From Bacteroidota bacterium (GTDB lineage: Bacteria > Bacteroidota > Bacteroidia > B-17B0 > Aurantibacillaceae): a stretch of 64,000 nucleotides of DNA. The stretch is taken from assembly GCA_021156365.1 (NCBI GenBank), contig JAJNDK010000008.1, forward strand, positions 290,823 through 354,822. The letters run 5' to 3'. A program made the position numbers and the translations under genes. Below, one piece after another: positions 110-10,795 of the stretch (position 1 is its first letter; every line of letters begins with the position of its first letter). Under the pieces are notes generated by a model, which had not been told where the DNA came from, did not search any database, and saw only the letters and a list, made by a program, of their open reading frames with translations.

Positions 110-498
110 ATTCCGGTCTTTGTTTGGAGTAAATATAGTTTTTTCTGAAACAAAATAAAGCAGATACCCGTATATTCAGGCAGGCTATTATACCGTTTCA
201 AAAAAACGGAATGTTTTTGTTTTGTCTAATTATCATATTGAGAAAATATTCCCGGTTTGATAATATTTGTCTACACCTTTACTTTTTAATATTTTGATTT
301 TCAACTGAGTAAAATCGGGAATGAAATTCGATTATCAAAATGTGGACAAGCAAAAATTATATATATGAAAACCCCACAAAATACGGACTCATTTGTTGTA
401 GGAACATTAAGCGTTCTGCCTAATACGTCAAAATAGAAAGACAGGCTGTGTTTTTATTTGTGGCGTTAGTACCAACGCCTCATAAAAACTTAAGCCCC
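110..498. other. AT-rich intergenic region with an interrupted inverted repeat
   Basis: No gene is visible in these 389 bases between two divergent genes. The stretch holds TTTGATAAT at 256-264 and its exact complement ATTATCAAA at 331-339. A second nested pair is TTCCCGG (249-255) facing TCGGGAA (315-321). Together they form a loose dyad about 90 bases wide. It could be a regulatory site for the phosphorelay genes downstream or chance in AT-rich DNA. I see no clear TAnnTTTG promoter for the rightward gene. Confidence 0.3.
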
Positions 499-936
499 AT
501 GAAAATTTCCAAACCCGGTATTCCAAAATTCAAGATCGCAATTTTAGAAGACAATCTTTATTATAATAAGCTGATGAAAAATCAGATCTCCTGTTATTTT
601 GAAGATTTCGGCATGTACAATCATTGCTCTTTTTCTGTCAAATCATTTATCAATACCTCTGACTTCGTTTCCAATCTTTCCATTAATCCGGATGTAGTAT
701 TATTGGACTTTTATCTGCAGGACGGCGAGAACGCATTAGAGGTGATGGATAAGATCCAAAAGGCAAATGATAAATGTAAAATATTAATTATTTCAGGCAG
801 CCAGAACCTGGATACATATTATAAAACCTTCTGGAAAGGAGCGGCCGATTTTATCATGAAAGACAAGTTTGCTGCATTAAATGTATGCAGGATAATTGAA
901 GCCATCTGCACGGAAAAAATGACGAAAAAGTCATAG
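499..936 (+). CDS. Stand-alone receiver (REC) domain response regulator
   Basis: About 145 aa from the ATG at 499. An in-frame start at 448 would only add a tail unlike any receiver. The protein is one CheY-like REC domain: acidic pocket in ILEDN, phospho-acceptor Asp in VVLLDFYLQDG, the conserved hydroxyl residue in IISGS and the Lys in MKDK. There is no output domain. Its first strand and helix (LEDNLYYNKLM) closely resemble those of the sigma-54 regulator encoded at 3461 ([11 protein letters not shown]), so the two receivers look like paralogues. It lies 35 bases before the hybrid kinase gene on the same strand and probably belongs to the same phosphorelay, as a phosphate sink or second target. 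That role is inferred from position. Confidence 0.85.
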   Translation: MKISKPGIPKFKIAILEDNLYYNKLMKNQISCYFEDFGMYNHCSFSVKSFINTSDFVSNLSINPDVVLLDFYLQDGENALEVMDKIQKANDKCKILIISGSQNLDTYYKTFWKGAADFIMKDKFAALNVCRIIEAICTEKMTKKS

Positions 937-971
937 TGAAAGTCATAGATTATGACTATTTTTAGATACTT

Positions 972-3053
972 ATGAACCAACGAAAGATTGAGTGGATAAT
1001 CGTTTTTTTTACAGTCGTTCTTGTTTGTGCTGTGGTCACAGTGGGTTACATCACGTTTGGCAATCTCAAAAAGATAGAGCACCAGACCGAACGTATTTCC
1101 GAGCCCAACCGCACCATTCTCAATTTGAAACTGGTCATATCAGAGCTTCGCAATTCGGAAAGCAATGTATACTCTTATAATCTCTATAAAAATGAAGAAT
1201 ATCTGTTGTCCTATCACCATTCGCTGGAGCTGATAGATGAATATTTCGACAGCCTCTATTTTTATCAAAAAGATGAGAAGAACAGCCAGGCGATCATAGA
1301 CAGCATCCGGTTTTTGACAGAACAAAAATTCCTGCTGCTGAATGAGCATCTGAACCTGCGGAACGATGAAAAACTTTTAGGAGAGCTGAACAGGATCAAC
1401 GTAAAGTTGGACTCAATCAAACTGATCGATACGCTGAACTTACGCAAAACGAACGAAGCCATACCAAAAAAGAAAAAAGGTTTTTTTTCACGCTTGTTCA
1501 AAGCAAAACAAAAACCGGATACTACTAATTACAACAAACTACTCACCGACTCCATCAACGCCATCACAAAAAGATCGGTGAACGATGTGAAAACGGAAGT
1601 AAAACAAGTGAAAGTAACCCAGGCCCGGCAGCTGGACGAAATGAAATCGAAAGAGCTGGACCTGATCGCAAGAGACAACAGTGTAATGAGCCACCTGCTC
1701 TCCCTGATCAATGAGCTGGAAAAAAAACAAAATGAAAAATTGAAAACGATCGCCCGTGAAAATATAGATCAAACGGTGAAGACCAATAATTTCATCCGGA
1801 TCTTCGGCAGCCTTATCCTGCTGCTGATGTTATCACTGATCGCTTTTTCGCTCTTTTATCTATACCGCAGCAAACAATACCGCAATAAGCTGAAAGAAGC
1901 CGCTAAAGTAGCAAGAGAGCTTGCAAAGAGCAAAGAATACTTCCTCGCTACGATGAGCCATGAGATCCGTACGCCACTGAATGCTATCGTAGGCTTCAGC
2001 GAGCAGCTGTTACAATCACCCCTCAACGAAGAACAACAGAACCAGAGCAAGATCATCCATTCTTCTTCTAACCACCTGCTGGAGATTGTGAACGATGTGC
2101 TTGATTTCAGTAAGATAGAAGCGGAAAAGATCAGCCTCGAGGAAATACCTTTCAATCCAAGGAAACAAGTTTGGAAAGCGATACAGTTATTGAATCAAAA
2201 AGCCCTCGAAAAAAATCTTGAGGTCCGGTTTACGGAAAGTAAAGATATTCCGCATTATGTGATCGGCGATCCGCTCCGGCTGAGACAGATCATGCTTAAC
2301 CTGCTGAGCAACGCAATCAAATTCACACCCAAAGGACATATTTCGGTTACACTCGCTACCAAAAGCACCGGCGAAAAAAACAAGATCCTGTTAACTGCTT
2401 CGGTAGTGGATACCGGGATCGGGATCGCGCCTTCCCGCATCGAAACCATTTTTGAGAGCTTTACACAGGCCGATAACAGCATCACCCGCAAATACGGAGG
2501 AACAGGCCTTGGACTAAGCATTACCAAACGCCTGGTCGATCTTCAGAAAGGGACCATTTTTGTGAACAGTGAGCTCAACAAAGGTACTTCCATTGCGTTT
2601 GAGATCCCTTACCTCGTAGACACCAAAGGTACCATTCATTCACACAAGGGCAAGCTCCCGGTGGAAAACAAGCTGGCCGGAACCAAACTGCTGATCGCCG
2701 ACGATGAGGTGTTCAACCGTGTACTCATCAGTACCATTGCAAAAAAATACGGGATGGCCTATGATGAGGTGGAAAACGGAGCAGAAGCGCTGGAAATGAT
2801 CCGGAAGAATCAGTACGATGTGGTGCTCATGGATGTGCGAATGCCGGAAATAAGCGGAATGGATGCTGCCGTGCTCATCCGCCAGATGGCCGACAAAACA
2901 AAAGCAGGAGTGCCGATCATTGCGCTGACAGCAACTTCATCCCCGGAAAAAAAAGAAAAATATATACGGGCGGGCATGAACGAAGTACTTACCAAACCAT
3001 TCAAAGAACAGGACCTGCTTTCTACTATCGAAAACCTATTATTCAATGTATAA
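972..3053 (+). CDS. Membrane hybrid sensor histidine kinase with C-terminal receiver
   Basis: 693 aa. TM1 is at about residues 8-30, then a largely helical extracytoplasmic region of about 245 residues, then TM2 at 275-297. A short linker leads to the HisKA domain with phospho-acceptor His330 in SHEIRTP. The HATPase_c domain has its N box at 440-450 (Asn443, Asn447), G1 box DTGIG at 470-474 and G2 box GGTGLGL near 509-515. A receiver domain follows with Asp577/578, phospho-acceptor Asp621, Thr653 and Lys675. All catalytic residues are present. A basic patch with KKKK at about 166-169 interrupts the periplasmic helical region. The stop overlaps the next gene (Hpt) by 8 bases, implying translational coupling and a His-Asp-His-Asp relay. 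The signal sensed cannot be read from the sequence. Confidence 0.93.
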   Translation: MNQRKIEWIIVFFTVVLVCAVVTVGYITFGNLKKIEHQTERISEPNRTILNLKLVISELRNSESNVYSYNLYKNEEYLLSYHHSLELIDEYFDSLYFYQKDEKNSQAIIDSIRFLTEQKFLLLNEHLNLRNDEKLLGELNRINVKLDSIKLIDTLNLRKTNEAIPKKKKGFFSRLFKAKQKPDTTNYNKLLTDSINAITKRSVNDVKTEVKQVKVTQARQLDEMKSKELDLIARDNSVMSHLLSLINELEKKQNEKLKTIARENIDQTVKTNNFIRIFGSLILLLMLSLIAFSLFYLYRSKQYRNKLKEAAKVARELAKSKEYFLATMSHEIRTPLNAIVGFSEQLLQSPLNEEQQNQSKIIHSSSNHLLEIVNDVLDFSKIEAEKISLEEIPFNPRKQVWKAIQLLNQKALEKNLEVRFTESKDIPHYVIGDPLRLRQIMLNLLSNAIKFTPKGHISVTLATKSTGEKNKILLTASVVDTGIGIAPSRIETIFESFTQADNSITRKYGGTGLGLSITKRLVDLQKGTIFVNSELNKGTSIAFEIPYLVDTKGTIHSHKGKLPVENKLAGTKLLIADDEVFNRVLISTIAKKYGMAYDEVENGAEALEMIRKNQYDVVLMDVRMPEISGMDAAVLIRQMADKTKAGVPIIALTATSSPEKKEKYIRAGMNEVLTKPFKEQDLLSTIENLLFNV

Positions 3054-3423
3054 CTCAATGAAACCGAATATGCCAGGCATGAAAATTTCATATAACCTTT
3101 CAGGACTCGACGGACTCGAAGACAAACACGATCAGTTTATAAAAGAGATGATCCGCCTGTTCATCAAAGGCACTTCATCCGGAATGAAGGGAATGCAGGT
3201 AGCTGCAAAAGAAAAGGATTGGAATACAGTGGCTGAGCATGCACATAAGATCCTGGGGCCCTGTAAGCATCTCGAAGTAATGCCCTTAGCAAAAACACTC
3301 CGGTCGATCGAGAATACTATTTTCGATCTCAAAAAAACGGATGGTATCCCCGAGCTGGTGGAGCAGGCTGAAGAAGAAGCGAAAGAAACAATCAAAGTAT
3401 TTGAAAAACTAATTTCGGAGTAA
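3046..3423 (+). CDS. Hpt (histidine phosphotransfer) protein
   Basis: Up to 125 aa. Met5 (3058) and Met12 (3079) are alternative starts; the first ATG overlaps the kinase stop and is the coupled choice. The all-helical domain carries the Hpt motif AEHAHKILGPC, with His67 the likely phospho-acceptor (family consensus AHxLKGs). It should carry phosphate from the hybrid kinase receiver to the sigma-54 response regulator that follows 37 bases downstream. Usual Hpt length is 100-130 aa, so it is complete. The kinase-Hpt-regulator order is itself strong evidence for a multistep relay. Confidence 0.88.
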   Translation: MYNSMKPNMPGMKISYNLSGLDGLEDKHDQFIKEMIRLFIKGTSSGMKGMQVAAKEKDWNTVAEHAHKILGPCKHLEVMPLAKTLRSIENTIFDLKKTDGIPELVEQAEEEAKETIKVFEKLISE

Positions 3424-3460
3424 TTCCGTATATTAAGTACCGTGCGGAGCGGACAAGCCT

Positions 3461-4825
3461 ATGAAGGACAAAAAAACAGTAGCTGTGTGGATAGTAGAAG
3501 ACAATGAGTGGTATAATAAGCTGCTCAAACATACTATTTCACTCAACCCCGAATACAGTGTACGTACTTTTTTCAATGCACACGACTTCCTGAAAGAGCT
3601 CGAAGCCAAACCGGATATAGTGACCATCGATTACAGGCTCCCCGACATGGACGGCATCGAGCTATTGGCAAAGATCAAAAGCTTTGATGAGAATATTAAG
3701 GTGATCGTGATCTCCGAGCAGGACAAGATAGATACTGCTATTGAACTGCTGCGACTCGGCGCTTACGATTACATTGTGAAAGAAAAAGATGTGCGCAACA
3801 GGCTTCTCAACACGATCAACAACGCGATAAAGGAACAAAACCTCGTGACCAGGATCATGGCCCTGGAGCAGGAAGTGATCAATAAATATGATCTGAATAA
3901 AACCATCATCGGTGCGAGTCCTGCTATACAAACCTCGCTCAAACTGATCGAAAAAACATTAGAGAATAATATTACAGTGATCGTTACGGGGGAAACCGGA
4001 ACGGGTAAGGAAGTGGTAGCGAAAGCTATTCATTACAACTCCTCCCGCAAGCATAAGAATTTTGTAGCAGTGAATGTGGCTGCTATCCCGGGCGAGCTGA
4101 TAGAAGCGGAATTGTTCGGGCATGAGAAAGGCGCCTTCACAGGAGCCAATAACCGCCGGATCGGGAAGTTTGAAGAAGCCAATGGTGGCACGCTTTTTCT
4201 CGATGAGATAGGCGAACTCGATCATTCCCTGCAGGCAAAGCTATTGCGGGCCCTCCAGGAAAAAGAGATCGTACGCATAGGAAGCAATGCCCCGATAAAA
4301 TTCGACACCCGCATCATTGCGGCCACACACAGAAACCTGAAAGAAGAGGTGAAGAAAGGGAAATTCAGAGAAGATCTTTACTATCGCCTGATGGGATTCC
4401 CGATCGAGCTGCCACCGCTCCGTTCAAGAGGAAAGGATGTACTGATACTCGCCAAACATTTTATAGATGTGTTCTGCAAGGAAAACAAAGTCCCGTTGAA
4501 AACACTGAGTGAAGAAGCAAAAGCCAAATTACTGGGTTATCACTACCCGGGCAATATCCGTGAATTGCGCTCTACCATAGAGCTCGCCATTGTGATCGGT
4601 GATAAGAATGAGATCATGGCCAACGACATTACTTTCCTTTCGGATGAACTGAACCCTGAGAATGTAAGTGACGATCTTACCATGCGCGAATACGAACTAA
4701 AGATCGTGGAAACGTATCTGAAAAAATACAACAACGATATCAAGCTGATCGCCTCGAAGCTGGATATCGGGCAGGCTACGATCTACAGGATGATCAAGGA
4801 AATGAAGGAGAAAGGAACCGCTTAA
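3461..4825 (+). CDS. NtrC-family sigma-54-dependent response regulator
   Basis: 454 aa with three intact modules. The receiver has Asp57 in [11 protein letters not shown] and Lys107. The AAA+ sigma-54 interaction domain has Walker A GETGTGKE at 177-184, the sigma-54 contact loop GAFTGA at 224-229, Walker B LFLDE at 245-249 and arginine finger region FREDLYYRL at 302-310. A Fis-type helix-turn-helix lies at about 410-450. Once phosphorylated it should activate RpoN-dependent promoters; targets are not evident here. It ends the phosphorelay cluster. Its stop codon overlaps the convergent HNH nuclease stop by 4 bases. Confidence 0.95.
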
Positions 4826-5490
4826 TCAAAGTATTTTTCAAATTCTGCTTTCAAGTCAGGATTTTCCATAATTATTTCTCTTTTAAAAGCAGTAAAATTT
4901 GAAGATCGGTTCAATTGTCCTTTTATTCTAATCAAAAAATATTTTTTATCTTTTTTAGTATAAGTGTCATTAAAATAATCTAAGAGATTTTGTTGAAAAC
5001 TCAGAATTTCCTCTAAAAGTTTATTCCGCAAGTTGGAAGATTCTATAGTTTTCAATTTCGTAGTTCCATTATAAATATCCATGAGCAATGATTTTGTCAT
5101 CAATGTCTCTGCAGAGGTGTCGAGCTCTTCAATTTTCACCTTTTCAAGAGGGAAAGGCTTAAAGCCATATTTTAATCTATTTCCTATATTTTGTGTCTTA
5201 TCGGTACAATTAAGAATATTCTTATAATTTGCCAATTTAGTATTATTACAATGGCTACAAGCCCAAAACAAATTATTCCAATCAAATTTCAAATCAATAT
5301 TTCCCTCATGAGGAGTGAAATGCTCTACATTTATAGACGTAGGCTCTTTATATTCACATATATAGCATTTATTCTTAAAGTCATCTTTTATTCTATTTAA
5401 GACATTTAAGCATTTATAATCTCCACTTGTTTTAAGCTTTTCTTTTTCTAAACAATCCGGTGCCGGCTGTGATTTTTCGAAATAAACCAT
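4822..5490 (-). CDS. ptuB: HNH endonuclease, PtuB-like subunit of a Septu-type defence system
   Basis: 222 aa. The nuclease core is at residues 42-84: zinc ligands Cys42/Cys45 (CYIC), the VEHFTP motif with His57, a central WNNLFWAC with Asn72/Asn73, and CSHCN with Cys78, His80 and Cys81. This is the zinc-finger HNH fold of the TIGR02646/PtuB type, followed by a helical C-terminal region. The gene lies 6 bases after the ATPase gene on the same strand, so the two form an operon in the ptuA-ptuB order. In known Septu systems the ATPase and HNH protein act together against phage nucleic acid. The sequence is noticeably more AT-rich than its neighbours, suggesting acquisition. The pairing supports Septu; a retron-type association was considered, but no reverse transcriptase is present. 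Confidence 0.8.
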   Translation of the reverse strand: MVYFEKSQPAPDCLEKEKLKTSGDYKCLNVLNRIKDDFKNKCYICEYKEPTSINVEHFTPHEGNIDLKFDWNNLFWACSHCNNTKLANYKNILNCTDKTQNIGNRLKYGFKPFPLEKVKIEELDTSAETLMTKSLLMDIYNGTTKLKTIESSNLRNKLLEEILSFQQNLLDYFNDTYTKKDKKYFLIRIKGQLNRSSNFTAFKREIIMENPDLKAEFEKYFD

Positions 5491-5496
5491 TTGCCT

Positions 5497-6726
5497 TTAT
5501 TTTTTGTTATTTAACTCTATTAATTCTATTTGCTGTAATTTAACCAATAATTCTTTGGATAAATATTTCGGAGTATGAGCAAAATAATCACGTAAATATC
5601 TTAATCGCGCTGAATTTGGTTCTGATAAATCATTAGTATTTATTAGCATTTCAAACTCTCCGATTAGTGCTTTTACTTCTTCAGAGTATTTATCTGTATT
5701 AAAATAACTTTCTAATAAAGCATCATAGGAGTATGCAGATAAATCTGTAATGACAGTCTTAGATTCCAAATCACAAATGACAGTATTAGAAAGAGAGGAA
5801 AGTACAAATGGCGAATGAGTAGTTACAATAAATTGAATCCTTGGAAAAAAATCAGTCAGAAATGGTAAAATTTTTTTTTGTAAATCAACATGTAAATGCG
5901 TCTCAATTTCATCAATAATAACTATTCCTTCTAAATCATAAGATTTCACTTCGTGAGCTTCCATCCGTAACAACAACTCAGTTACAATACTAATTATAGC
6001 AGAATATCCATCAGACAAGTTATTAAAATTAAAAGGTTGCTTCCCTGGAGCTATGATATCGAAATTATATGTTTTTCTATCAAAAAGAAGCATAAGATCT
6101 TCCACATCAAATATTTCCTTAAGCCTATCTTCAAATTTACTAAACCAACTATCAATTTTATCAACTACACCCTGCTCGTTGTCGTCCCTTGCAAACGATC
6201 TATCTGCTTTAAGGTTTACAATATATTGAATGAAACCAATACTTGCCCTTTCCTTATAACCATACTTTTTCTTCAAATCAATTTTTTTTACGCCTGTTGG
6301 AATCGTTAAATTTGTATGCCTCTTAGAGTCAAAATAAGCCAAAATAAATTCTCCTTTTTGGCATTTGTCATAAATTCTATCTTCTGACAAGGAAAATGAT
6401 ATCTTGGTACCTCCAAAATTTTTGAACCATTCTAAAATGCCTTTATACTGATTATTAGAGTTTTGCCTTATTGTTTCTGGAAGATTGGTATTTGATATTT
6501 GATCTTCTAAATGCATTAAATTCCTTTTTTGGCTCTCATAATGCACAAAACTACCACCATCAATTTGAGTTAAATACTTATTTATTTCAATTAATAAACT
6601 GGTCTTTCCACTTCCGTTTTTTCCCGTTAGAATCAAATGCTTTCTTTTATCCTCCGAAAAAGGTATTTCCAAGTCTTTAACATTTCGAGACTCTTTAACC
6701 GTTATACTTGTTATAAAATTTTCCAT
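5497..6726 (-). CDS. ptuA: AAA/ABC-like ATPase, PtuA-like subunit of a Septu-type defence system
   Basis: 409 aa, soluble, SMC/ABC-type ATPase of the AAA_15/AAA_21 class. Walker A GKNGSGKT is at 35-42, an ABC-signature-like NLSDGYSA is near 236-243, Walker B IVIIDE is at 268-273 followed by ETHLH, and the switch histidine is in VTTHSP (His304). The insert between Walker A and the signature (about 190 aa) is the usual place for family-specific functions. It is the first gene of a two-gene operon with the HNH nuclease. A consensus -7 promoter box (6771-6778) lies upstream on the same strand. Other ATPase/nuclease defence pairs (Gabija-like, RloA-like) were considered; the HNH partner favours Septu. 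No phage specificity can be read. Confidence 0.8.
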   Translation of the reverse strand: MENFITSITVKESRNVKDLEIPFSEDKRKHLILTGKNGSGKTSLLIEINKYLTQIDGGSFVHYESQKRNLMHLEDQISNTNLPETIRQNSNNQYKGILEWFKNFGGTKISFSLSEDRIYDKCQKGEFILAYFDSKRHTNLTIPTGVKKIDLKKKYGYKERASIGFIQYIVNLKADRSFARDDNEQGVVDKIDSWFSKFEDRLKEIFDVEDLMLLFDRKTYNFDIIAPGKQPFNFNNLSDGYSAIISIVTELLLRMEAHEVKSYDLEGIVIIDEIETHLHVDLQKKILPFLTDFFPRIQFIVTTHSPFVLSSLSNTVICDLESKTVITDLSAYSYDALLESYFNTDKYSEEVKALIGEFEMLINTNDLSEPNSARLRYLRDYFAHTPKYLSKELLVKLQQIELIELNNKK

Positions 6727-6770
6727 TATTTTATAGGTTTTTCTAATTATAAGAAGCTAAATAGCTTATT

Positions 6771-6778
6771 CAAATTTA
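6771..6778 (-). promoter_or_regulatory. -7 promoter element for the Septu-like operon
   Basis: TAAATTTG on the minus strand matches the Bacteroidota TAnnTTTG -7 element and lies about 45 bases upstream of the ATPase ATG. I do not see a well-spaced TTG -33 element. It is divergent from the helicase promoter at 6830-6837. Confidence 0.5.
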
Positions 6779-6829
6779 GTCCATTTATTTCAATCCCTTA
6801 TCTCTTTCCCATAATTAGCCTACTTTTCC

Positions 6830-6837
6830 TATCTTTG
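6830..6837 (+). promoter_or_regulatory. -7 promoter element for the DEAD-box helicase gene
   Basis: TATCTTTG is an exact TAnnTTTG match ending 7 bases before the ATG at 6845. The transcript would therefore have almost no leader. Confidence 0.6.
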
Positions 6838-6844
6838 CAGTCTA

Positions 6845-8179
6845 ATGGCGAACTTCGAAGAACTTAACTTAAATAAACCACTGCAAAAGGCACTGGCTGA
6901 TATGGGCTTCGACAGCCCCACTCCTATCCAGGCAAAAGCATTCCCTACCATCATGTCGGGCAAAGACGTAGTAGCCATCGCACAAACCGGTACCGGGAAA
7001 ACATTCGCTTACCTGATGCCGATCCTGCGTCAGTTGGAATTTTCAGAAATCCGTCAACCCCGTGTGTTGATCGTGGTTCCTACACGTGAGCTGGTAGTGC
7101 AGGTAACCGGCGAGATCGAAAAGCTTACCAAATTCATGAATGTGCGCATCGGAGGTATTTACGGAGGTACTAACATCAATACACAAAAAACACTGGTTTA
7201 CAACGGACTTGATATATTGGTCGGAACACCGGGACGCATCAACGACCTGATACTGAGCCGCACCCTTCAATTGCACGCTGTAAAAAAATTCGTGATCGAT
7301 GAGATGGATGAATTACTGGCACTGGGATTCCGTCCGCAATTGCTCACACTGATGCAAACGCTGCCGGAACGCAGGCAAAACCTTCTGTTCTCCGCTACAC
7401 TGGATGAAGACGTAGAAAAGATCATAAAAGATTATTTTACAAAACCTGAGTACATAGAGCTGATCAGCCGCGGTACTCCTATCGAAAAGATCATTCAGAA
7501 AGGCTATACCGTTCCGAATTTTTATACCAAGATCAATTTGCTGGAGCATTTATTGCTGAAGAACGAGGACATGAGCAAGGTGCTGGTATTTACAAAGAAC
7601 AAAAAACTGGCCGACCTGCTGTTTGCAGCAATAGAGCCTGCTTTCCCTGGAACGATCGGCATCATTCATTCCAACAAATCACAGCCGCAGCGTTTTGCTG
7701 CATTGAATAGTTTCCAGGAGGGCAGCTATCGTGTGCTGGTGGCAACAGATATCATTTCACGCGGTCTGGACATTCCGGATGTAACACATGTGATCAATTT
7801 CGATACCCCGGCCGAACCCGAATCCTATATTCACCGGATCGGACGTACTGGCCGTGCAGATAAGATCGGACATGCCCTGGTATTCATCAGCCCGATGGAA
7901 AAAGAATTCCGGGTGCAGATCGAAGAGCTGATGAGAAAACCCATCCCGATGGAGAAAATGCCGAAAGAGGTGGAGGTGGTAGACAAGCTCATTCCCGACG
8001 AAAAGCCGGAGAAAAGAGACAAGAACATCGCCAAATTCAATAAGAAGCTTGAAGTAAAAGGCGGAGGTGCTTTCCACGAGAAAAGTGAAAAGAATAAACA
8101 GACTCCCAACATCGGTAAACGCAGGCAGGAAAGTCAGCGCCGGCAAAAACTGAAATTCATGCAAAAGAAAAAGAAATAA
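6845..8179 (+). CDS. DEAD-box-family ATP-dependent RNA helicase (DEMD variant)
   Basis: 444 aa superfamily 2 RNA helicase. Visible motifs: Q motif with SPTPIQ, motif I AQTGTGKT (46-53), Ia PTREL, Ib TPGR, motif II DEMD (152-155) in place of DEAD, III SAT (183-185), V ATDIISRGLD and VI HRIGRTGR. The last 70 residues are rich in Lys and Arg, as in RhlE-type proteins that bind structured RNA. The likely role is RNA remodelling in ribosome assembly, mRNA decay or cold adaptation. The Ala-to-Met change at the third position of motif II keeps the Asp-Glu needed for ATP hydrolysis. It is monocistronic with its own promoter. Confidence 0.92.
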   Translation: MANFEELNLNKPLQKALADMGFDSPTPIQAKAFPTIMSGKDVVAIAQTGTGKTFAYLMPILRQLEFSEIRQPRVLIVVPTRELVVQVTGEIEKLTKFMNVRIGGIYGGTNINTQKTLVYNGLDILVGTPGRINDLILSRTLQLHAVKKFVIDEMDELLALGFRPQLLTLMQTLPERRQNLLFSATLDEDVEKIIKDYFTKPEYIELISRGTPIEKIIQKGYTVPNFYTKINLLEHLLLKNEDMSKVLVFTKNKKLADLLFAAIEPAFPGTIGIIHSNKSQPQRFAALNSFQEGSYRVLVATDIISRGLDIPDVTHVINFDTPAEPESYIHRIGRTGRADKIGHALVFISPMEKEFRVQIEELMRKPIPMEKMPKEVEVVDKLIPDEKPEKRDKNIAKFNKKLEVKGGGAFHEKSEKNKQTPNIGKRRQESQRRQKLKFMQKKKK

Positions 8180-8278
8180 GGGAATTTAAAGAAAACAAAG
8201 CAATTTCGGTTCCTTAATATTATTTGCCATTGCTGCATTATTTCGCAATATTTGTGTTTTTGTAGCGTTATTGACCCC

Positions 8279-10795
8279 GTGAAGACCGTTCAATCCCATT
8301 TCATTGCCTGCTGCCTGTCTGCGTTATTCGCTTTTGCGGTATTTTTTTCGCAGGCGCAAACGGGTACTGTGCGTGGGAAGATAGCCGAGCTGGATGGGAA
8401 TACTCCTATACCCGGTGTTCAGGTATTTGTGGAAGGCACTTCCATTTCACCACAATTTACAGACAAAGATGGCTTGTATTCTATCGAAGTGCCGGCCGAC
8501 AGAGACCTCGTTATCGTCTTTGCCAACCTCAGTTATAAAACAATCAAAAAAAAGGTAAACCTGGATCCGGGAGAAGTACGGGTGATCAATCCCTTTCTGG
8601 ACATGAAAGCCGATCTGATAGAGATCGTTGTTACCGATAAGAATGAGAATGTAGACATTATAAAATTAAGCCATAAAGAGATCGTTCAGCTCCCCGGAGG
8701 TATGGATATCAACCGGTTGCTGCCATCGCAGGGCCTCGGTGTCAGCGTGAGCAATGAGTTAAGCTCGGGCTATTCCGTTCGGGGAGGTAATTTTGATGAG
8801 AATCTCGTGTATGTAAATGGCATTGAAGTATACCGTCCTTTCCTGGTGAGAAGCGGGCAGCAGGAAGGCTTGAGTTTTCCGAACCCTGATATGGTAGCTA
8901 ATATGGAATTTTCTGCAGGTGGATTTGAAGCCAGGTTCGGAGATAAATTATCGAGCGTGCTGGACATCAGCTATCGCAGACCCCGTAAATTCTCCGCTAC
9001 TACCTTCGTCAGCTTATTAGGTAGCAGTGCACACATAGAAGGGATATCGAAAAACAAGCTCGTAGCCTGGCAGGTAGGAGCCCGTTACAAAACCAATCAA
9101 TACATATTGAAAAGCATAGACACGAAAGGTGATTATAAATCTCATTTCTACGATGTACAATCACTGGTTAACTTTGCCATCAATCCGAAATTCAACATCG
9201 AACTTTTAGGTACTTTCTCCAGCAATAAATACCAGGTCGTTCCTTCCACACGTGAAACTACTTTCGGAACCTTCAACCAGGCTTTACAGTTCAAGGTATA
9301 CTTCGACGGGCAGGAAGTAAGTCAGTATGAAACGTATTTCGGGGCGATCTCTGCCACCTACAATCCGAATAAGAAAACCGAGCTCAAATTCATTACTTCC
9401 GCTTTTCATACCAAAGAAAGTGAAACCTTCACCGTACAGGGGCAATACTATATCAATGAGCTGGAAACCGACCTGGGAAGCTCCAATTTCGGGAACGTGG
9501 CCTTTAACAGGGGCATCGGTACTTTCCTGAACAATGGTCGGAATTATCTCGAAGCATGGGTAATGAACGCCGAGCACAAAGGGTCCTGGACGCCAAAAAA
9601 AGGTCAGCAGCTGCAATGGGGCGCACGCATTCAGCACGAGATCATTCATGACAAGCTGGGCGAATGGAATTACATCGACTCTGCAAGCTATTCGATTCCG
9701 CTGGGTAACCCAACCACCATCGATCTCAATGATGTTATAAAAACAAAAATAAACCTGGAATCGAACCGGGTGATGGGATATGCCCAGTACGTGATCCGCA
9801 AACAATTAAAAGATACATCAACACTTACTCTTACTGCAGGCATACGCAGCAATTACTGGACACTGAACCAGGATAATGTGATCAGTCCGCGTGCAACACT
9901 TGCCTTCAAACCCAACTGGAATTCGAACTGGGTATTCAAAGCATCGGCGGGGATGTATTATCAGCCTCCTTTCTACCGTGAAATGCGCGGGTTCGACGGA
10001 ACGGTGAATACCAACCTGAAAGCGCAGCAATCTATTCATTACATTCTTTCCGGCGACCTCGAATATATCATGTGGGGAAGGACGTTCCGTTTTATAACGG
10101 CCGCGTATTACAAACAGCTGAACAATCTCGTACCGTATGAGATCGACAATGTGCGGCTACGGTATTACGCCAACAACGACAGCAAGGGATTTGCTACAGG
10201 GATCGATCTTCGCCTGAACGGAGAATTTGTAAAAGGTGTGGAATCCTGGGTGAGCATGAGCGTCATGACGATCCAGGAAGATATCAAGAACGATTCTTAC
10301 ACCACTTATCGCGATTCGTTGGGAGATCCATGGTACAAAGGCTACAGCAACCTGCCCGTTCATGACAGTGCTGTACATTATCCGGGCTTCATCCCGCGAC
10401 CTACCGATCAGCGTGTTACCTTCAATTTATTTTTCCAGGATTACCTGCCAAAAATACCTTCCTGCAAAATGCATTTGAACATGATCTTTGGATCGGGCTT
10501 AACTTTCGGCCCGCCTTCACATGAAAAGTACCGCGACACACTGCGTATGCCTTCCTACAGACGCGTCGATATTGGTTTCTCTTACCAGTTATTGAAAGAA
10601 GATCGGGAAGTAAAAGCTAAAAGTATATTCAGGGTTCTCAAATCTGCCTGGCTCAGTCTCGAAGTGCTGAACCTGCTTGCTGTGAACAATACGGTTTCCT
10701 ATACCTGGATAAAAGATGTGACCAACCGGCAATATGCCATCCCGAATTACCTCACCAACCGGCAGCTGAATCTGAAGCTGCAATTGAAATTTTAG
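8279..10795 (+). CDS. TonB-dependent outer-membrane receptor with CarboxypepD_reg N-terminal domain
   Basis: 838 aa from a GTG at 8279. This start places a clean signal peptide (MKTVQSHFIACC, then a hydrophobic core ending SQAQ) at the N-terminus. A TTG nine codons earlier would spoil it. After the signal come a carboxypeptidase-regulatory-like beta domain (GTVRGKIAELDGNTPIPGV, about 30-115) and a plug domain (about 130-240, with VRGGNFDENLVYVNGIEV). A 22-strand barrel region follows, ending in an aromatic-rich C-terminus LNLKLQLKF. It probably imports a siderophore, glycan or other large ligand, but no SusD partner is adjacent, so the substrate is unknown. Standard length for the family. Confidence 0.9.
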   Translation: MKTVQSHFIACCLSALFAFAVFFSQAQTGTVRGKIAELDGNTPIPGVQVFVEGTSISPQFTDKDGLYSIEVPADRDLVIVFANLSYKTIKKKVNLDPGEVRVINPFLDMKADLIEIVVTDKNENVDIIKLSHKEIVQLPGGMDINRLLPSQGLGVSVSNELSSGYSVRGGNFDENLVYVNGIEVYRPFLVRSGQQEGLSFPNPDMVANMEFSAGGFEARFGDKLSSVLDISYRRPRKFSATTFVSLLGSSAHIEGISKNKLVAWQVGARYKTNQYILKSIDTKGDYKSHFYDVQSLVNFAINPKFNIELLGTFSSNKYQVVPSTRETTFGTFNQALQFKVYFDGQEVSQYETYFGAISATYNPNKKTELKFITSAFHTKESETFTVQGQYYINELETDLGSSNFGNVAFNRGIGTFLNNGRNYLEAWVMNAEHKGSWTPKKGQQLQWGARIQHEIIHDKLGEWNYIDSASYSIPLGNPTTIDLNDVIKTKINLESNRVMGYAQYVIRKQLKDTSTLTLTAGIRSNYWTLNQDNVISPRATLAFKPNWNSNWVFKASAGMYYQPPFYREMRGFDGTVNTNLKAQQSIHYILSGDLEYIMWGRTFRFITAAYYKQLNNLVPYEIDNVRLRYYANNDSKGFATGIDLRLNGEFVKGVESWVSMSVMTIQEDIKNDSYTTYRDSLGDPWYKGYSNLPVHDSAVHYPGFIPRPTDQRVTFNLFFQDYLPKIPSCKMHLNMIFGSGLTFGPPSHEKYRDTLRMPSYRRVDIGFSYQLLKEDREVKAKSIFRVLKSAWLSLEVLNLLAVNNTVSYTWIKDVTNRQYAIPNYLTNRQLNLKLQLKF

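Follow-up and report, generated by a model that had tools for sequence, protein, structure and literature searches.

We describe a pair of adjacent, co-directional genes, ptuA and ptuB, in a 64,000-nucleotide stretch of a Bacteroidota genome (assembly GCA_021156365.1, contig JAJNDK010000008.1; the window), which very probably constitute a stand-alone Septu system (type I in PADLOC), likely to have been gained horizontally and predicted to protect its Bacteroidia host from phages. ptuA (5497..6726, minus strand) encodes a 409-residue ABC-type ATPase and ptuB (4822..5490, minus strand) a 222-residue HNH nuclease; a spacer of 6 bases (5491..5496, minus strand) separates the ptuA stop from the ptuB start, and the pair is probably a single operon. 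What is shown here is the identity of both genes, their intact motifs and common predicted fold, the conservation of their pairing, a composition that deviates from the rest of the window and a restricted distribution. The pair is a well-formed, ordinary example of an already known Septu system.

Identity and conservation of the gene pair

An earlier reading made from the sequence alone (the sequence-only reading) had proposed a Septu ATPase and nuclease, and profile searches bore this out with matches that were close to end-to-end. The PADLOC PtuA model PDLC00268 aligned its residues 1-402 (of 411) with residues 1-403 of the 409 in PtuA, scoring 404 bits, and the PtuB models PDLC00331 (residues 1-221) and PDLC00321 (residues 1-222) scored 199 bits each. 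All three ATPase motifs claimed by that reading were found in PtuA, namely Walker A (GKNGSGKT, residues 35-42, including K41), the LSDG signature (237-240) and Walker B (D272-E273), along with TTHSP at 302-306; the Walker A lysine, the Walker B aspartate and glutamate, and the THSP residues were invariant across 52 aligned PtuAs. The zinc-HNH nature of PtuB was likewise recovered, with a Pfam HNH match above the cut-off, two CxxC pairs (C42/C45 and C78/C81) and the predicted catalytic residues H57 and N73, all six of which were invariant across 42 aligned PtuBs. The spacing of 16 residues between H57 and N73 equals that between H75 and N91 in the PtuB of E. coli Septu EcB88.

By sequence, PtuA matched PtuAs of known structure from retrons and Septu (E 2.1e-18 for the single sequence, 4.3e-26 for a profile) and PtuB weakly matched solved PtuBs (E 1.6e-05 for a profile). 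When the predicted structures of both proteins were compared, solved Septu and retron PtuA and PtuB outscored every other listed protein. The same two genes, motifs and predicted folds are shared with type I Septu of E. coli (PtuAB, PDB 8eea and 8ee4; EcB88), and PtuA starts directly at the ATPase domain in both (residue 3 of the window model on residue 1 of the chain), though the window PtuA, at 409 residues, is shorter than that of 8ee4 (465), and sequence identity is low. The PARIS ATPase AriA scored below the PtuA entries in the match list for the window PtuA, and its partner is the Toprim nuclease AriB rather than an HNH nuclease.

Pairing of the two genes was also conserved, in that PtuB followed PtuA in 15 of 16 named genome loci; in 13 of the named relatives the distance between the two genes lay between -14 and +38 bases. 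PtuA and PtuB distances were correlated (r 0.884) across the window and 13 of the 16 loci, those left out being L041, where ptuA occupies two frames, L044, which is cut, and L046, which lacks PtuB; none of 5000 permutations gave as high a value, a count that is not a strict probability since the related sequences are not independent. In a large collection, related proteins at E <=0.001 numbered at least 6092 for PtuA (7989 candidates scored) and 1184 for PtuB.

The exception to pairing was L046 (2870-4870), from a Magnetococcales metagenome-assembled genome, in which the gene for a PtuA-like ATPase of 44% identity has, in place of ptuB, genes after it that by eye resemble those of an AbrB-type antitoxin and a PIN-domain toxin. 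In Hymenobacter daecheongensis (L041, 7995-9226), ptuA is spread over two frames that overlap (157 and 253 residues) next to a full-length ptuB, which is either a frameshift or a sequence error. Directly upstream of ptuAB in L047 (3807-5749) are an AAA ATPase gene and, by eye, an RloB-like gene, a possible second defence pair.

The sequence-only reading had further suggested that a roughly 190-residue insert between Walker A and the signature might define a subtype. The interval from K41 to L237 spans 196 residues with strands and helices throughout in the predicted model, and an extra domain was rejected here; the span is the ordinary ATPase body, with nothing additional in the window PtuA. 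Nor does it mark a subtype, because the distance from K41 to D272 (231 residues) is shorter than that from K43 to D316 in EcB88 (273). The corresponding distance was 190-235 residues in 13 named relatives, some of them about 35 residues shorter in this span, and 251 in L046. PtuA length ranged from 370 to 413 residues in the window and the 13 named relatives, as against 456-552 in the solved chains.

Several observations weigh against the assignment or its functional reach. Identity to the solved proteins was only 20-24% for PtuA and 14-17% for PtuB (Ptu entries of the structure comparison), the single-sequence match of PtuB to the PDB was not significant (E 0.15), and NCBIfam TIGR02646 scored PtuB at 32.5 bits, below its cut-off of 52.15; given these values, a target cannot safely be carried over from the solved pairs. 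Literature searches on Septu and retrons, none of them aimed at this question, turned up no experimental work on the pair itself or on close relatives of it in Bacteroidota.

Deviating composition, stand-alone organisation and rival explanations

Foreign, AT-rich composition had been anticipated, and the pair was indeed the lowest in G+C when the 54 window open reading frames (ORFs) of at least 100 residues, filtered for overlaps, were compared. The G+C contents of ptuB (28.4%) and ptuA (29.6%) stood against a mean of 43.8% (standard deviation 3.0) in the other 52, none of which was as low. Third-position G+C of the pair was also low (1 of 52 as low), whilst codon use departed from the norm in ptuA (0 of 52 as low) and to a lesser degree in ptuB (4 of 52). 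When 87 genomes of the family were searched with the PtuA profile, the genome of origin reached 404 bits, as against 119 for the second-ranked genome; there was no close match in the 86 others, including two congeners with no match (one congener genome being 66% complete). At E <=0.001, 53 of the 87 genomes gave matches, mostly of low score, which we read as reflecting the general ATPase fold. The highest AT content in the window, together with the lack of a close match in 86 family genomes, fits horizontal gain. Against this, no more than 18 candidates were scored in each genome of the family search, and the locus offers neither mobility genes nor an empty site that can be read; no integrase was matched in ten flanking genes (four left and six right, one of them without any match; Pfam, E <=1e-5), as the sequence-only reading had stated. 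In two related loci, ORFs resembling tyrosine recombinases by eye lie 70-170 bases upstream of ptuA, one a short fragment (L036, 7655-7930) and the other XerC/D-like (L038, 2260-3195).

PADLOC classes Septu with a reverse transcriptase as type II and the rest as type I (PMC8565338). Type II corresponds to the type I-A retrons Ec78 (Eco7) and Ec83, from which the window locus differs in that neither an adjacent reverse transcriptase nor an msr-msd was found and a PtuA N-terminal stretch of about 60 residues is missing. The pair could nonetheless be the effectors of such a retron whose reverse transcriptase and msr-msd have been lost or lie elsewhere, given that the best-scoring solved relatives of PtuA, by sequence and by structure, are retron proteins and that the genome holds a single RVT_1 match. 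This match, however, is on contig C1 and ptuAB on C10, and no reverse transcriptase was detected among the same ten flanking genes at the same threshold, the 18 kb left of the window being listed as ORFs only. In the retron chains Ec83 and Ec78, the counterpart of residue 1 of the PtuA model is residue 59-62 (alignment with the 9n69 group is from residue 43), hence the window PtuA lacks the retron-type N-terminal stretch. The NCBIfam retron Ec78 models scored far below their cut-offs (PtuA 118.9 bits against 500, PtuB 21 against 150), and Rfam, which need not cover every msr, gave no match at E <=1 in 3400-8300. A reverse transcriptase match was present somewhere in the genome of 11 of the 16 named relatives. 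We therefore consider retron effectors very unlikely; the absence of an adjacent reverse transcriptase and of the N-terminal stretch points to a stand-alone Septu of PADLOC type I, consistent with the earlier claim that no retron accompanies the pair.

A non-defence role for an AAA ATPase and HNH pair, such as DNA repair or a toxin-antitoxin-like addiction unit, could be envisaged from the Pfam AAA_21 and AAA_15 profiles, which also match PtuA above their cut-offs (SMC_N below its own), and from the growth arrest reported on co-expression of retron-Eco7 PtuA and PtuB (PMC11555353). It is nevertheless unlikely, as the PtuA and PtuB models ranked first within PADLOC by a wide margin over non-Ptu models, and restricted presence with deviating composition is ill suited to a core repair role. 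A degenerate, inactive remnant is very unlikely, both frames being full length and retaining the invariant motif residues of the alignments.

Probable insertion site and locus layout

The sigma-54 regulator ORF to the left (3461-4825, plus strand) overlaps the ptuB ORF by 4 bases, the sequence TTAA at 4822-4825 being common to the stops of ptuB (minus strand) and the regulator (plus strand); this overlap and the 6-base gap between the pair agree with the arrangement first described. The closest regulator homologue among those listed, P0241, which represents two sequences and is assigned to a contig of 44,528 bases, is identical at 450 of 452 residues and ends in KEKG, and P0242 (38 differences) and P0243 (57) end at the same length. 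The window regulator runs two residues beyond this end, Thr-Ala, followed by the TTAA common to ptuB, placing a probable left junction at 4817..4825 (plus strand; ACC GCT TAA, the last two codons and stop of the regulator). Because the near-identical P0241 ends two residues earlier, insertion of the cassette at the regulator's stop codon is probable and is the simplest reading of these sequences. In contrast to P0241, the window PtuA and PtuB each form a cluster with a single member, which comes from the contig of the window itself. Regulator length, however, varied from 432 to 465 among 120 listed homologues, which counts against stop-codon entry, and on the basis of this variation the altered end may instead reflect a plain stop shift.

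Homologues of both the regulator and the helicase on the right (both at least 50% identical) were found in seven related genomes (G002, G003, G008, G029, G035, G036 and G037), on different contigs in all seven, so that synteny shows no empty site. The proposed insertion is supported by restricted presence and the regulator's altered end, whilst no empty site was readable at the DNA level. The flanks are positioned as claimed, although one of them, a two-component regulator, is not strictly housekeeping.

The DEAD-box helicase gene starts at 6845, divergent from ptuA, and the intergenic region (6727..6844; 27% G+C) is a probable promoter region and right junction. It contains two candidate TAnnTTTG-like elements (minus strand 6771-6778, plus strand 6830-6837), neither of which was seen to have a -33 element at the distance expected. 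At 6754-6767, near the predicted ptuA promoter region, two perfectly matching 6-base arms (AAGCTA and TAGCTT, 2 bases apart) form an inverted repeat that is possibly an operator and possibly due to chance. The left flank (448-4825) forms a two-component cluster of a response regulator, a CHASE3 hybrid histidine kinase, an Hpt protein and the sigma-54 response regulator. The ORF list of the window is mechanical and not a curated gene set.

Predicted mechanism and significance

In E. coli EcB88, substitutions of PtuB H75/N91 are reported to abolish defence, as are those of PtuA K43 or D316 (PMC13096335). Retron-Eco7 PtuAB is reported to deplete tRNA-Tyr, and Septu of E. coli ATCC 25922 to target nicked DNA (PMC11555353), whilst a review describes PtuA and PtuB in a 6:2 complex, with degradation of the phage genome. 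For the present pair we infer expression, complex, trigger, target and protection, together with horizontal gain. By analogy with such systems, PtuA probably binds ATP and forms a multimer carrying PtuB, kept inactive until phage infection alters the nucleotide state or assembly of PtuA; the HNH site of PtuB (H57, N73) would then cleave a nucleic acid needed by the phage. Phage growth would halt, and cell growth may halt too. As to the target, we lean slightly towards host tRNA, as in EcB88 and retron-Eco7, over phage DNA, as in the ATCC 25922 system.

It may be tentatively speculated, though we hold it doubtful, that a compact Septu lineage is moving through Bacteroidota and other groups as nothing more than its two genes, with no recombinase of its own, able to enter exactly at the stop codon of a host gene and replace that stop with its own, and that with its short PtuA it may rely on an assembly less elaborate than the 6:2 complex of E. 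coli. The locus is a further clean case of stand-alone Septu, found in a Bacteroidia genome and having both a short PtuA and a short PtuB. Since E. coli Septu systems have been reported to hit either DNA or tRNA, such a distant, compact and retron-free pair would be a useful test of the ancestral target, and its probable stop-codon junction offers a concrete site for asking how recombinase-free cassettes move.
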